DNA of 64,000 bases, taken from contig NZ_JAFCMM010000007.1 in assembly GCF_018131225.1 (NCBI RefSeq), positions 1 through 64,000 of the forward strand, given 5' to 3'. Positions 10,269 to 15,835 of this stretch are shown here, piece by piece. The stretch comes from Bradyrhizobium sp. U87765 SZCCT0048. Lineage in GTDB: Bacteria; Pseudomonadota; Alphaproteobacteria; Rhizobiales; Xanthobacteraceae. The position numbers and the translations under genes were made by a program. Within the stretch, counting starts at the first letter, position 1; each line of letters opens with the position of its first letter. The notes beneath the pieces are model-generated. The model saw only the letters and a program-made list of their open reading frames with translations. It had not been told where the DNA came from and searched no databases.

Positions 10269-11456
10269 ATGTCGGCAGCCGAGACACCCCCCACCGCGCC
10301 GGACCGCGCCGGTCCCGTCGTCATTCTGGTCGAGCCGCAGCTCGGCGAGAACATCGGCATGGCGGCGCGCGCCATGGGCAATTTCGGCCTCAGCCGGCTG
10401 CGCCTCGTCAAGCCGCGCGACGGCTGGCCGAGCGTGCCGGCGAGCCGCGCGGCGGCTGGCGCCGACCACATCATCGACCATGTCGAACTGTTCGACACCG
10501 TCGAGGCGGCGATCGCCGATCTCAACCTGGTGTTCGCCACCACCGCACGCGCCCATGACCAGGCCAAGCCCGTGGTCGGTCCGGAAGCAGCGGCGGCGGA
10601 GATCATCGGTCATGTCGCCGGCGGCGGCGGCGCGGGCCTCATGTTCGGCCGCGAGCGCTATGGCCTGCTGGCCGAGGAGGTCGCGCTCGCCGACCGCATC
10701 ATTACCTTCCCGGTCAACCCGGCGTTCGCCTCGCTCAACCTCGCCCAGGCGGTGCTGCTGGTCGGCTACGAGTGGTTCAAGCAGTCGACCGGCGGGGCGC
10801 TGCCGCACGGCACGCCCGACGACAGTCCGCGCGCCGGCAAGGAGCAGTTCGGCGCCTTCTTCGACAACCTCGTCGCCGAACTCGACAAGGTCGAGTTCCT
10901 GCGGCCGCCGGAGAAGCGCGACACCATGCTGGTGAACCTGCGCAACATCTTCACCCGCATGGAGCCGACCACCCAGGACATCAACACCCTGCATGGCGTC
11001 ATTCTTTCGATCGCCGAGGGGCGCAAGGGCCCGGCCAAGGGCGGCGTGCTCGACGGCAGCCAGGCAACACGGCTGCGCGCGCTGATCGCCGAGCAGAGCA
11101 GCAAGGCCACGGACGACGGCGGCTCGCTGCGCGGGCTGGCGCGGCTGCTGCGCCGCAATCCCACCGATGCCGAGCGGCTGCTGTGGGAGGCGTTGCGCTC
11201 CGACCGACGCTTCGCCGGCCACTTCAAGCGCCAGACGCCGGTGGGGCGTCATATTCCCGACTTCGTGTCGTTTCCCCGCCGCCTCGTCATCGAGATCGTC
11301 AACGCCGACGATCCGCCGGCGATCGCCGCCGAACGCGACGCGCGCAAGATCTGGCTCGGCGAGCGCGACTACCGTGTCATGCATGTCGCCGCCGCCGACA
11401 TCGAGACCGATCTCGAGGCGGTGCTGGCGCGTCTCGCCGCGGACGCGCAGGGTTAA
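10269..11456 (+). CDS. trmJ: TrmJ-type SPOUT RNA methyltransferase fused to a C-terminal DUF559 domain
   Basis: 395 residues. Residues ~15-255 are a TrmJ/SpoU (SPOUT) 2'-O-methyltransferase: LGENIGMAARAMGNFGL (25-41), LMFGRERYGL (124-133) and NPAFASLNLAQAV (150-162) are the three knot motifs binding S-adenosylmethionine. TrmJ normally methylates position 32 of tRNAs and is about 250 residues. Here residues ~288-392 add a DUF559 module (RRNPTDAERLLWEALR.., FKRQTPVGRHIPDFV, RLVIEIV), a fold related to Vsr-type nucleases. The usual ..DGGQH motif after IE is replaced by VNADDPP, so nuclease activity is doubtful. No frameshift is seen between the halves. Confidence 0.85.
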   Translation: MSAAETPPTAPDRAGPVVILVEPQLGENIGMAARAMGNFGLSRLRLVKPRDGWPSVPASRAAAGADHIIDHVELFDTVEAAIADLNLVFATTARAHDQAKPVVGPEAAAAEIIGHVAGGGGAGLMFGRERYGLLAEEVALADRIITFPVNPAFASLNLAQAVLLVGYEWFKQSTGGALPHGTPDDSPRAGKEQFGAFFDNLVAELDKVEFLRPPEKRDTMLVNLRNIFTRMEPTTQDINTLHGVILSIAEGRKGPAKGGVLDGSQATRLRALIAEQSSKATDDGGSLRGLARLLRRNPTDAERLLWEALRSDRRFAGHFKRQTPVGRHIPDFVSFPRRLVIEIVNADDPPAIAAERDARKIWLGERDYRVMHVAAADIETDLEAVLARLAADAQG

Positions 11457-11640: not shown

Positions 11641-12525
11641 TCAGGCCGCGCGCTCGATGGCGATCGGCGCTGGCGGCACCGCATCGCGAACGTCGATGGC
11701 GCGCGGCAGCAGGCCGAAGCGGTGGAAGATGTCGGCGGCACGCTGCTGATCGGCGATGAAGGCGTCGTCGATCGGCTGCAGGCCCCACGGGCGCTTGGCG
11801 ATGTGGGCCTGCCACTCCTCTGCCGTCAGCGGTCCACGCGCGGCCGCGACGAGATGCGCGGCGGCTTCCGCCGGATGGGTGGCGATCCAGCGGTCGACGG
11901 CGTCGAGGCCGGCGGCGACGGCCGCGAGCACCTCGGGGCGGCGGTCGGCGAGATCGCGGTGGGCAAAGAACACCGACGGATTGGACACGAGGTCCTGCGT
12001 GTTGGCGAGTACGCGCAGTTGATCGGCGCCGTCCTTCAGCGCCCCGCCGGACACCCACGCGTCGATGTCGCCGGCGAGCAGCGCGGCGCGCGCCTCGGTC
12101 TCGGTGAGGTCGAGCGGCACGATGTCCTTCCAGGTCAGGCCGGCGCGGTCGAGCGCGGTGGCGAGCAGCGCCTGCAGCCATGAACCGACGCCGAGCGCGA
12201 TGCGGCGGCCGGCGAGATCGGCGATCGCCTGCGCCTTGCTGTCATGGCGGACATAGATGCCGCCGACCGGACGCGCGGCTGATGTCGCGAGATAGACCAG
12301 CGGCAGGCCGCGCGCCTGCGCCGAAATCGGCGGCGTCGAGCCGGTGCCGCCGACCTGGATAATGTTGGCGCCGACGAGATCCACCGTGCGCGCGCCCGCC
12401 GCGATGTGATGCCATTCCACACTGACGCCAAGCGGTGAAAGTTTCTTCTCCAGTTCGCCGGTGCGGCTCGCGACAAGCAGCGTCGGGTTGTTGGCGTGCA
12501 CGCCGATGCGAAGCGTTTCAGACAT
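11641..12525 (-). CDS. SsuA-like ABC substrate-binding protein without a signal peptide
   Basis: 294 residues from the ATG at 12525 (AGGA 8 bp upstream). The sequence follows the sulfonate/nitrate/taurine binding-protein pattern: LRIGVHANNPTLLVASRTGELEKKL, VGGTGSTPPISAQARGLPLVYLATS, and DLAGRRIALGVGSWLQALLATALDRAGL. The N-terminus starts directly with the mature fold (MSETLRIGV), with no signal sequence in either this or the longer frame to 12588. A cytoplasmic sensor or enzyme-like role is therefore possible. It is divergent from the DszB-like gene and belongs to the organosulfur island. Confidence 0.75.
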   Translation of the reverse strand: MSETLRIGVHANNPTLLVASRTGELEKKLSPLGVSVEWHHIAAGARTVDLVGANIIQVGGTGSTPPISAQARGLPLVYLATSAARPVGGIYVRHDSKAQAIADLAGRRIALGVGSWLQALLATALDRAGLTWKDIVPLDLTETEARAALLAGDIDAWVSGGALKDGADQLRVLANTQDLVSNPSVFFAHRDLADRRPEVLAAVAAGLDAVDRWIATHPAEAAAHLVAAARGPLTAEEWQAHIAKRPWGLQPIDDAFIADQQRAADIFHRFGLLPRAIDVRDAVPPAPIAIERAA

Positions 12526-12610
12526 CGAGATTTTCCTGATTGTCGGCGGCGGCCTTGCGTCGCTGCCGGAAAAAGATCGTGACGACACTATTTTTTCACA
12601 TCGAAATTGT

Positions 12611-12625
12611 CTACCGGGTTGGTAG
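12611..12625. promoter_or_regulatory. Inverted repeat CTACC-N5-GGTAG in the divergent promoter region
   Basis: A 5-bp inverted repeat with a 5-bp spacer lies 30 bp upstream of the DszB-like start and within the 129-bp gap shared with the divergent binding-protein gene. It is a plausible operator for the sulfur island; no regulator gene is adjacent. Confidence 0.4.
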
Positions 12626-12654
12626 TCTTTCGTTGCGTGACATCAGGAGATCTC

Positions 12655-13737
12655 ATGACGGCAGCGGCTTTGAATACGGGAAACGGCGGCGCGGAAAAAT
12701 CCATCTCTTTGACGGAGCTTTGGTACACGCGTTGTCCTGTTCCGACCGCCTCCGGCATTGCACTTGATCTCGGCTGGCTCGGCGAGGAGTTCGCGCGCTC
12801 GGGGATCGCGCTGTCGTCGATCCGCGATTCCGACGATCCGCGGGTGCAGATCGCCCATTTCAGCCACACCCTGCCGGGGCTATTCCGCGAGGGCGGCAAC
12901 ATTCCGGCGATCTGGGCGAAGTCTGAGGGGCGCGACACGGTGGTGGTGGCGCTGACCTGGGTCGACGAGTTCCAGGCGATCCTGGTGCGCGAGGATTCTC
13001 CCATCCGCACGCTCGCCGATCTCAAGGGACATACGATCGGCGTGCCGCGTCAGGATGGGGAACGTATCGACTTCGCCCGTGCGATGTCGCTGCGCGGCAT
13101 TGTCACCGCGCTCGATCTCGGCGGCCTGACGCTCGCCGACGTCACGCTGCACGACATCACCAGCGAGCAGCCGGCGTTCTCCGGCGCCAACGTCGCCAAT
13201 GGCCGCTTCTATGAGCGCGAGGCGCGGGCGCTCGCCGACGGCAAGGTCGATGCGGTCTACGCCAAGGGTGCGCCCGGGCTCGGCTCGGCGCGCGACCGTG
13301 GCTTTCGCGTGCTGGTCGATCTCGGCCGGCATGCCGATCCGCTGGTGCGGGTCAACAACGGCAATCCACGTCCGGTGACGGTCGACCGCCGCACTGCCGA
13401 GGAGCGGCCCGATCTCGTCGCGCGCTATCTCGCGACGCTGATCCGCGCTGCCGACTGGGCGGCGCAGCACCCGGACGAGGTGTTCGCCATCATCGGCAAG
13501 GAGGTCGGCCGCAGCAGCGAGGAGGCGCGCGCCGCCTATGGCGAAATCGCGCACCGCAACTTCGGCCTCGACCTGTCGCCGCTGCGCCGCGACGGCCTTG
13601 CGCGGCAGAAGGACTTTTTGCTGCGCCACGGCTTCATCACCCACGATTTCGACGTCGCCGCCTGGATCGACCCGCGGCCGCTGCCGCTCGCGCTGGCGCT
13701 GGTCGCCGGCGAAGCGCCGGCGCGCGCGACGGCCTGA
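12655..13737 (+). CDS. DszB-like sulfinate desulfinase candidate (SsuA-fold)
   Basis: 360 residues from the ATG at 12655 (AGGAG 6 bp upstream); no signal peptide. It has a periplasmic-binding-protein fold sequence, but the catalytic residues of DszB (2-hydroxybiphenyl-2-sulfinate desulfinase: Cys27, His60, Arg70) have clear counterparts: YTRCPVPTASG gives Cys27, RVQIAHFSH gives His68 and LFREGGNIPAI gives Arg78. The His-to-Arg spacing of ten equals that in DszB, and total length is close (DszB 365). Further shared stretches are LVREDSPIRTLADLKGHTIGV and DGKVDAVYAKG. An enzyme that releases sulfite from an organosulfinate is the best inference; many database entries for such genes just say ABC binding protein. 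It is 17 bp upstream of the SsuD-like gene. Confidence 0.7.
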   Translation: MTAAALNTGNGGAEKSISLTELWYTRCPVPTASGIALDLGWLGEEFARSGIALSSIRDSDDPRVQIAHFSHTLPGLFREGGNIPAIWAKSEGRDTVVVALTWVDEFQAILVREDSPIRTLADLKGHTIGVPRQDGERIDFARAMSLRGIVTALDLGGLTLADVTLHDITSEQPAFSGANVANGRFYEREARALADGKVDAVYAKGAPGLGSARDRGFRVLVDLGRHADPLVRVNNGNPRPVTVDRRTAEERPDLVARYLATLIRAADWAAQHPDEVFAIIGKEVGRSSEEARAAYGEIAHRNFGLDLSPLRRDGLARQKDFLLRHGFITHDFDVAAWIDPRPLPLALALVAGEAPARATA

Positions 13738-13754
13738 CCGCAAGGAGCTTTGAC

Positions 13755-14873
13755 ATGGACATCTACTGGTATCTGATCCCGCAGGACGGCCCTTATCCCT
13801 GGAGCGAGAAGGGGCGCCGAACCATCGACTACGACTATCTCGCGCAGGTGGCGCGGGCGGTCGATCATCTCGGCTTCACCGGCGCGCTGCTCGCCACCGG
13901 CGGCGGCGAGCACGACGCCTGGGTGCTGGGCTCGTCGCTGATCCCAGTAACCAAACGGATGAAGTTCATCATCGCCGTGCATCCGGGCATCGTCGCGCCG
14001 CTGATGCTGGCGCAGAAGGCCGCCACCTTCGACCAGTTCTCCGGCGGCCGGCTGATCCTGAACATGGTCACCGGCGAGAACAAGCAGATGCCGCCTTACG
14101 GCATCACCCTCGACCACGACGAGCGTTACGCCCTGACCGACGAATACTGGGGCGTGTGGCGGCGGCTGATGTCCGGCGAGGTCGTCGACTTCGATGGCCG
14201 CTTCGTCAATCTCAAGGGCGCGCAGCTCAAGCTGCCGGCGGTGCAGAAGCCGTATCCGCCGCTGTTCTTCGGCGGCTCGTCGGAGCCGGCGCTGAGCGTC
14301 GCCGCGCGCCACGCGGATACTTATCTCACCTGGGGCGAGCCGCCGCCGCAGGCGGCCGAGAAGATCAAGGCGGTGCGCGAGCGCGCCCGGGCGTTGGGCC
14401 GCACCGTCAAGTTCGGCATCCGCCTCAACCTCATCGTCCGCGAAACGAAGGAGGAGGCGTGGGCGGCGGCGCAGTGGCTGCTCGACCGCATGGACGACGC
14501 CACCGTCGCGGTGGCGCAGGCGCGCAACCGCACCTCGGATTCCGTGGGACAGGCGCGCATGCGCGCCATCGTCGGCGACCGCAAGCCGAAGGACGCCCGC
14601 GAGCTGGAGATCTATCCCGACCTGTGGGCCGGCTTCGGCCTCGTGCGCAACGGCCCGGGCACCGCGATCGTCGGCGATCCGGAGACGGTGGCGGCGCGGC
14701 TGCTCGAATACCGCGACATCGGCTTCGACACCTTCATCGTGTCGGGCCAGCCGCTGCTGGAGGAGACGTACCGCGTCGCCGACCTGTTGCTGCCGCTGCT
14801 GCCGTTCGACCGCGAGGCGGTGCGCAAGCCGCGCCTCGATCTTGGACCCTTCGCCAACGCTGCCCGAGGATGA
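13755..14873 (+). CDS. SsuD-like FMNH2-dependent sulfur-compound monooxygenase with altered active-site residues
   Basis: 372 residues with AAGGAG upstream. Strong overall match to alkanesulfonate monooxygenase SsuD (TIM-barrel flavin monooxygenase): YPPLFFGGSSEPA (167-179), LTWGEPP, KFGIRLNLIVRETKEEAW, SDSVGQARM and LWAGFGLVRNGPGTAIVGDPETVAARL. Arg223 and Arg298 match SsuD Arg226 and Arg297. Three other functional SsuD positions differ: Cys54 is His53, His228 is Asn225 and Tyr331 is Gln332. A changed substrate, for example a sulfone or aromatic sulfonate, is therefore likely. It would need a separate flavin reductase, not seen here. Cotranscribed with its neighbours (17-bp gap upstream, 4-bp overlap downstream). 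Confidence 0.85.
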   Translation: MDIYWYLIPQDGPYPWSEKGRRTIDYDYLAQVARAVDHLGFTGALLATGGGEHDAWVLGSSLIPVTKRMKFIIAVHPGIVAPLMLAQKAATFDQFSGGRLILNMVTGENKQMPPYGITLDHDERYALTDEYWGVWRRLMSGEVVDFDGRFVNLKGAQLKLPAVQKPYPPLFFGGSSEPALSVAARHADTYLTWGEPPPQAAEKIKAVRERARALGRTVKFGIRLNLIVRETKEEAWAAAQWLLDRMDDATVAVAQARNRTSDSVGQARMRAIVGDRKPKDARELEIYPDLWAGFGLVRNGPGTAIVGDPETVAARLLEYRDIGFDTFIVSGQPLLEETYRVADLLLPLLPFDREAVRKPRLDLGPFANAARG

Positions 14874-15835
14874 CGATGACGATCCGTTTCCGCCCGCTGG
14901 CGCGCCTTGCCGGCGCGCTGCTCGCTCTGTCTGCCATGACCGCGGCCTCGCACGCCGCCGATCCGGTGACGCTGCGCATCGGCTTCCTGCGCGGCCCCGA
15001 GCCGCTGTCGGTGAGCCGCCTGCGCGGGACGCTGGAACAGCGTCTCGCCGCCAAGAACGTCAAGGTGGTATGGGCAGGCCCGTTCAACGCCTACGCGCCG
15101 GCGGCCGAGGCGCTCAACGCCGATTCCATCGACATCACCGTCGGCTCGTCGAGCGCGGCGATCTCCTCGGTGGTCGGCAGCGCGCAGATTTCGCTGTTCG
15201 CCTATCAGTGGGATTTCGGCGATTCCTCCGGCATCATCGTCAAGAACGGCTCGCCGATCCAGTCGCTGAAGGATCTCGCCGGCAAGACCATCGCGGTCAA
15301 CCGTGGCGGCACCGGCGACTATCAGCTCACCAAGGCGCTGGAGAAGGCCGGCGTGCCGTCGGACGGCGTCAAGCGCGCGTTCCTGACGCCGGTGGATTCG
15401 GCGGCGGCGTTCAACAACGGCCATGTCGACGCCTGGTCGGCCTGGAGCATCTTCTATCCGATCGCGCTGCTCGAGCAGGACGCGCGGGTGCTGGCCACCG
15501 CCAAGGAGATCAATTCGCAGAACGCGGTGGTCTATGCGGTGCGCACGCCCTACGCCAAGGCCCATCCGGAAATCATCCGCGAGGTGCTGGCGGAGCTGCA
15601 GGCGTCGGCGCGGTGGGCGCAGGCCAACCGCGAGGAAGCGGCGAAGCTGTGGGTGCAGGAGCTCAAGCTCAGTCCGGCGGTGGCGAGCCGGGTCGCGAAC
15701 TACGAGATCAGCGAGCCGGTGGTGATCGGCGAGCGGGAACTCGCGGCGCTCGACAGCCTCAACGACTGGCTGGTGTCGCAGAAGCTGCTGCCCAAGCCCG
15801 CCGACATCCGCGGCCACGTCGTCGACGTCCGCTGA
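14870..15835 (+). CDS. SsuA-like periplasmic sulfonate-type binding protein
   Basis: 321 residues. The ATG at 14870 overlaps the stop of the monooxygenase gene (ATGA), indicating translational coupling; the ATG at 14876 is an alternative. A typical signal peptide (RPLARLAGALLALSAMTAASHAA) precedes the mature TLRIGF. Motifs such as DITVGSSSAAISS, IQSLKDLAGKTIAVNRGGTGDYQLTKALEKAG and FNNGHVDAWSAWSIF fit aliphatic-sulfonate/taurine binding proteins. No cognate SsuB ATPase or SsuC permease lies in the window, so it must work with a transporter encoded elsewhere. Confidence 0.85.
   Translation: MTMTIRFRPLARLAGALLALSAMTAASHAADPVTLRIGFLRGPEPLSVSRLRGTLEQRLAAKNVKVVWAGPFNAYAPAAEALNADSIDITVGSSSAAISSVVGSAQISLFAYQWDFGDSSGIIVKNGSPIQSLKDLAGKTIAVNRGGTGDYQLTKALEKAGVPSDGVKRAFLTPVDSAAAFNNGHVDAWSAWSIFYPIALLEQDARVLATAKEINSQNAVVYAVRTPYAKAHPEIIREVLAELQASARWAQANREEAAKLWVQELKLSPAVASRVANYEISEPVVIGERELAALDSLNDWLVSQKLLPKPADIRGHVVDVR

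Follow-up and report, generated by a model that had tools for sequence, protein, structure and literature searches.

The window, a stretch of 64,000 nucleotides from Bradyrhizobium sp. U87765 SZCCT0048 (contig NZ_JAFCMM010000007.1), contains a cassette of four genes arranged around one divergent intergenic region (Table 1). Its gene set, and the family membership, catalytic residues, conservation and mobility described below, were established by computation. The start codons of the genes for both substrate-binding proteins (SBP1 and SBP2) were revised to those given in the table. The tight spacing reported earlier from the sequence alone (hereafter the sequence-only reading) was confirmed, with a gap of 17 bp between the DszB-like and SsuD-like genes and an overlap of the SBP2 ATG with the stop codon of the SsuD-like gene (ATGA). 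Each of the four genes is preceded by a plausible ribosome-binding site. A sigma-70-type promoter match was not found in the intergenic region, nor a clear motif shared across the three alphaproteobacterial intergenic regions compared.

Table 1. Features of the cassette, with positions in the window
Feature	Position	Strand	Basis
SBP1 gene; signal-less (predicted cytosolic) SsuA-like protein, 294 aa	11641-12525	-	NMT1 Pfam; TIGR01728 just below cut-off
Divergent intergenic region, 129 bp	12526-12654		Sequence; ribosome-binding site on each side
Gene for DszB-family protein, probable sulfinate desulfinase, 360 aa, without signal peptide	12655-13737	+	PDB sequence, family-profile and structure matches
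Gene for SsuD-like FMNH2-dependent monooxygenase, divergent subfamily, 372 aa	13755-14873	+	PF00296; TIGR03565 score
SBP2 gene; exported SsuA-like substrate-binding protein with signal peptide	14870-15835	+	TIGR01728 above cut-off

Core genes flank the cassette: a TrmJ-DUF559 fusion lies to its left, an ATPase inhibitor zeta gene and purC to its right. The fusion (10269-11456) encodes a TrmJ tRNA methyltransferase with a C-terminal DUF559 domain and is also found in sister genomes. No permease or ABC ATPase gene was seen among the open reading frames of the 8-20 kb part of the window. A complete ssu operon (SBP, SBP, SsuD, SsuC, SsuB) lies elsewhere in the same genome (C1:2.31 Mb). A second DszB-like gene of this genome (G000:C1:2699348-2700382, L039; 38% identity) is located about 5 kb from an SsuD-like gene.

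Comparison across genomes identified the exact four-gene set in Bradyrhizobiaceae PARB1 (L044), a Xanthobacteraceae MAG (L040/L045), Pseudolabrys (L046), Nostoc (L047) and a Chroococcidiopsidaceae MAG (L051), that is, with the source genome included, in four Alphaproteobacteria and two cyanobacteria. The gene order is not fixed; L040, for example, has its DszB gene oriented divergently to SBP1-SsuD-SBP2. A plasmid cluster of Streptomyces sp. SAT1 (L036; A8713_RS01010-01040), the annotation of which names only transporter and LLM genes, has all four cassette genes in common with the window but adds SsuC and SsuB genes and an upstream IclR regulator gene, and similar sets occur in three further Streptomyces (L109, L117 and L120). 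Lacking SsuB and SsuC genes, the cassette of the window is not an ssuEADCB operon, and the earlier statement on their absence holds for it but not for the Streptomyces version.

The product of the second gene had been proposed to be DszB-like, and this identity was borne out at the level of sequence, profile and fold. Its best PDB sequence match was DszB (2de2, E 3e-16), followed by SsuA (E 4e-6), and a profile of 53 family sequences matched DszB only (3.8e-41) at E <= 1e-10. AlphaFold reached a pLDDT of 92 with the 53-sequence alignment as input and of 37 with the single sequence. The pLDDT 92 model superposes on DszB in its substrate-bound complex over 316 residues (Z 34.2), with SsuA (3uif, Z 26.6) as the second structural match, and the predicted fold is therefore nearer to DszB than to SsuA-type SBPs. 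Both proteins align over their full length (27% identity) and have in common the SBP fold, the lack of a signal peptide and the catalytic set. The active site of DszB consists of Cys27, His60, Arg70 and Gly73 (PMC12168087), which align with C27, H68, R78 and G81 of the cassette protein; the first three of these had been named correctly in the sequence-only reading. Identical residues at all seven checked positions were found in 114 of the 136 DszB-like family sequences, where only the conservation of His, Arg and Gly is independent of the search, as the pattern of the genome scan contained the Cys motif. The observation is not a matter of chance: DszB is the best PDB match, relatives are encoded in at least 569 stretches, and three phyla have the four-gene set. 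The protein is a true DszB relative and probably a sulfinate desulfinase, as judged from alignment and model.

The at least 569 stretches encoding relatives come from GTDB species genomes, and the best 80 of them include Pseudomonadota, Cyanobacteriota and Streptomyces. The family is now labelled as ABC transporter binding protein: no NCBIfam desulfinase model matched it, all 53 members were assigned to the SsuA family, and the annotation of several copies on plasmids reads ABC transporter protein. This grouping with SsuA-type binding proteins would suit a non-enzymatic protein of the SBP fold with a binding or regulatory role in the cytosol, as would the paralogues with Ser for Cys27 in Burkholderia clusters. 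Such a function is very improbable for the cassette protein, since the Cys/His/Arg/Gly set is kept in it and in most of the family and its predicted fold is nearer to DszB than to SsuA. If the family members are desulfinases, sulfinate desulfination would be far commoner than the fuel-desulfurising actinobacteria imply, and natural sulfinate substrates in soil would become testable.

The paralogues of the Burkholderia-type clusters are third DszB-like copies, mostly divergently placed (L092:6237-7310, L081:6252-7325 and 15 more loci). Of the 136 sequences, 16 have Ser at the position of Cys27 and Ile at that of His68 (ARS..I), and one more has Ser/Ser. The Ser27 paralogues are natural and probably inactive desulfinase relatives kept beside intact copies. 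A plain SBP had also been considered for the window protein and was rejected in view of the retained catalytic set.

The substrate probably differs from that of DszB. Near-invariant polar residues of the cassette protein's family (R26, H71, K204, R232 and R239) are specific to it and are not those of DszB, where the R26 position is Asn (SNCP motif); hydroxybiphenyl sulfinate is therefore probably not the substrate, and the aromatic nature of the sulfinate in the sequence-only reading is only tentative in view of the same residues. The mechanism of DszB, described as an aromatic substitution (PMC6100217), may also be a poor fit to a non-aromatic substrate. The genomic context differs as well, as DszB sits in a dszABC (4S) operon, whereas the cassette gene has only SsuD-like and SsuA-like neighbours, with an SsuD-like partner instead of DszA and DszC.

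The monooxygenase encoded next to the desulfinase candidate had been called SsuD-like and, judged by its sequence, belongs to a divergent subfamily. Its TIGR03565 (SsuD) score is 433.5 bits, below the curated cut-off of 518.2, whereas the canonical SsuD of the same genome scores 637.9 bits. In MsuD, the sulfonate site is formed by W195, R225 and R296 together with the RGGA loop, the last position of which provides a backbone NH as fourth sulfonate contact, and W195A, R225A and R296A are inactive (PMC8234197). The cassette protein belongs to the same luciferase-like family and keeps the three ligands (W196, R226 and R297), but its loop reads RNGP, and all module members have RxGP. As the proline of RxGP cannot supply the backbone NH, this contact is gone in the module members. 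Tyr331, Cys54 and His11 are also gone from the SsuD-like protein of every module member (in the cassette protein Y331 is Q, C54 is E, H228 is N and H11 is lost). The SsuD-like proteins linked to DszB in Burkholderia likewise have RxGP and no Tyr331, whereas four canonical SsuDs aligned retain Tyr331 and RGGA or RSGA. The protein thus matches SsuD in the Trp/Arg/Arg ligands but not in the family score and the loop. These residues point to an oxyanion-bearing sulfonyl compound as substrate rather than a simple alkanesulfonate.

One version of the sequence-only reading would be a 4S-like route, in which the SsuD-like enzyme acts as a sulfone monooxygenase in place of DszA or SfnG and the DszB-like enzyme takes the resulting aromatic sulfinate. 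Genes of the DszC and DszA type do adjoin DszB-like genes elsewhere: in Ensifer and Devosia, the neighbours are an acyl-CoA-dehydrogenase-like gene of the DszC type (24% to mycobacterial DszC) and a gene for a monooxygenase of the NtaA/DszA type (33% to DszA), and the altered sulfonate loop would also agree with such an activity. This route is nevertheless improbable. The cassette has no DszC-like S-oxidase, its SsuD-like protein scores 153.3 bits with TIGR04021 (SfnG) against a cut-off of 382.95, and the two sulfonate-binding arginines that it keeps, both missing from true SfnG proteins of relatives, speak against a neutral sulfone. SfnG itself was rejected as its identity on the family score and the retained arginines.

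The two SsuA-like proteins were found as described earlier, one signal-less and one exported. SBP2 has a hydrophobic N-terminus and a TIGR01728 score of 190.2 bits (cut-off 163.5), as expected for an exported SsuA-type SBP. SBP1 scores 152.4 bits, and no hydrophobic N-terminus was present in ten of ten modules from three phyla, in which the protein starts a few residues before its first strand. The SBP1 start is preceded by a stop codon at a distance of 5-15 codons in L044, L047 and L109, too close for a signal to fit in between. The module-specific invariants of SBP1 are S20 together with H10, N13, S82, R85, W238 and P246-W247, the latter being invariant across modules but not among the SsuA-type proteins used for comparison. 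In a profile alignment with the DszB-like family, its His could not be reliably placed against Cys27. The SBP1 profile was too unspecific for counting modules among 397 genomes, with an SsuA background of up to 245 bits.

A pair of SBP1 and SsuD-like genes also occurs on a Terrarubrum plasmid (L179:8001-10001; 40% and 57% identity), set among several luciferase-like monooxygenase genes and without an annotated DszB in the surrounding 8 kb or so; SBP1 is thus tied first to the SsuD-like enzyme. A further-reaching proposal is that SBP1, with its invariant His10, Asn13 and Arg85, is a second enzyme or a substrate-presenting subunit of the loop-altered SsuD-like oxygenase and that the DszB-like protein, as the second SBP-derived enzyme, completes sulfite release, so that three SBP-fold proteins would fill three roles in a previously unrecognised C-S cleavage pathway. 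This is speculative and, in our estimate, rather unlikely as a whole. The cassette gives a defined SBP-fold protein retained in the cell with which to ask how transport proteins turn into enzymes or enzyme partners.

Taken together, the cassette is moderately likely to be a sulfur-scavenging system that frees sulfite from an organosulfur compound by the SsuD-like and then the DszB-like enzyme. The substrate, this order of steps and the role of SBP1 are what we infer. SBP2 would bind the compound in the periplasm and pass it on to a transporter of the SsuBC type, which the Streptomyces cassette encodes itself and for which the cassette of the window presumably relies on the chromosome. Inside the cell, the SsuD-like enzyme with reduced flavin would cleave one C-S bond of a sulfonyl compound that keeps an oxyanion bound by Trp/Arg/Arg, and SBP1 might present or modify the substrate for this oxygenase. 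Cys27 of the DszB-like enzyme would then protonate the sulfinate carbon while His68 and Arg78 keep the SO2 group in place, and the sulfite freed would enter cysteine synthesis.

The pathway is suggested by the DszB membership in sequence, profile and predicted fold and by the proximity of DszB-like genes to flavin monooxygenases, which lie within 5 kb at 53 of the 80 family loci, an undercount, as overlapping open reading frames hid the Burkholderia SsuD-like genes. Against it stand the pocket residues that differ from DszB and the 27 of 80 loci at which this count gave no flavin monooxygenase within 5 kb. A precedent is the bdsABC operon of Gordonia terrae, in which a desulfinase is likewise paired with two flavin monooxygenases and which removes sulfur from benzothiophene in extracts of E. 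coli (PMC3868597). Unlike the cassette, bdsABC includes a DszC-like S-oxidase but lacks an SBP pair; its enzymes are of low homology to dsz enzymes according to the authors (PMC3868597), and its likeness to the cassette is one of operon make-up. A literature search retrieved no study on a DszB-SsuD pairing in proteobacteria.

SsuD-type enzymes convert sulfonates directly to sulfite. The step from sulfonate to sulfinate in the sequence-only reading is therefore, to our knowledge, without precedent, whereas the union of a DszB-family desulfinase with an SsuD-like monooxygenase in a conserved module was upheld, and sulfur release is likely to occur as had been suggested. The main rival to the sequential pathway, with a limited probability, is that both enzymes work in parallel: the SsuD-like enzyme would desulfonate a sulfonate to sulfite and the DszB-like enzyme desulfinate a separate sulfinate, with transporter and regulation shared and no common intermediate. 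The conserved Trp196, Arg226 and Arg297, sulfonate ligands tested in MsuD (PMC8234197), and the Terrarubrum pair would fit such an arrangement; the change to RxGP in all module members and the DszB-linked Burkholderia proteins, where canonical SsuDs keep Ala, argues against it, as does the canonical SsuD already present in the genome.

As for its genomic setting, the cassette is missing from the stretch between trmJ and purC in three sister genomes, which have other genes instead, and in L044 it adjoins gatB and is colinear over DszB-SsuD-SBP2 (75% DNA identity). Because of this absence at the same site and colinear presence elsewhere, the cassette behaves as a mobile block that moves horizontally as a unit, and its chromosomal site varies among the soil bacteria, cyanobacteria and Streptomyces that have it. 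In a DszB tree, the window protein clusters with those of L044, L040 and L046 (SH-aLRT 98), and the cyanobacterial and Streptomyces module proteins branch apart. A single clade of module sequences was weakly rejected (AU p 0.045), and the module may therefore have arisen through repeated assembly or losses. The trmJ-purC site itself is variable, with different genes in each sister (L176:5343-9507, L177:8101-9386 and L178:4131-6214), among them esterase and dipeptidase genes and glyoxalase-like and regulator genes.
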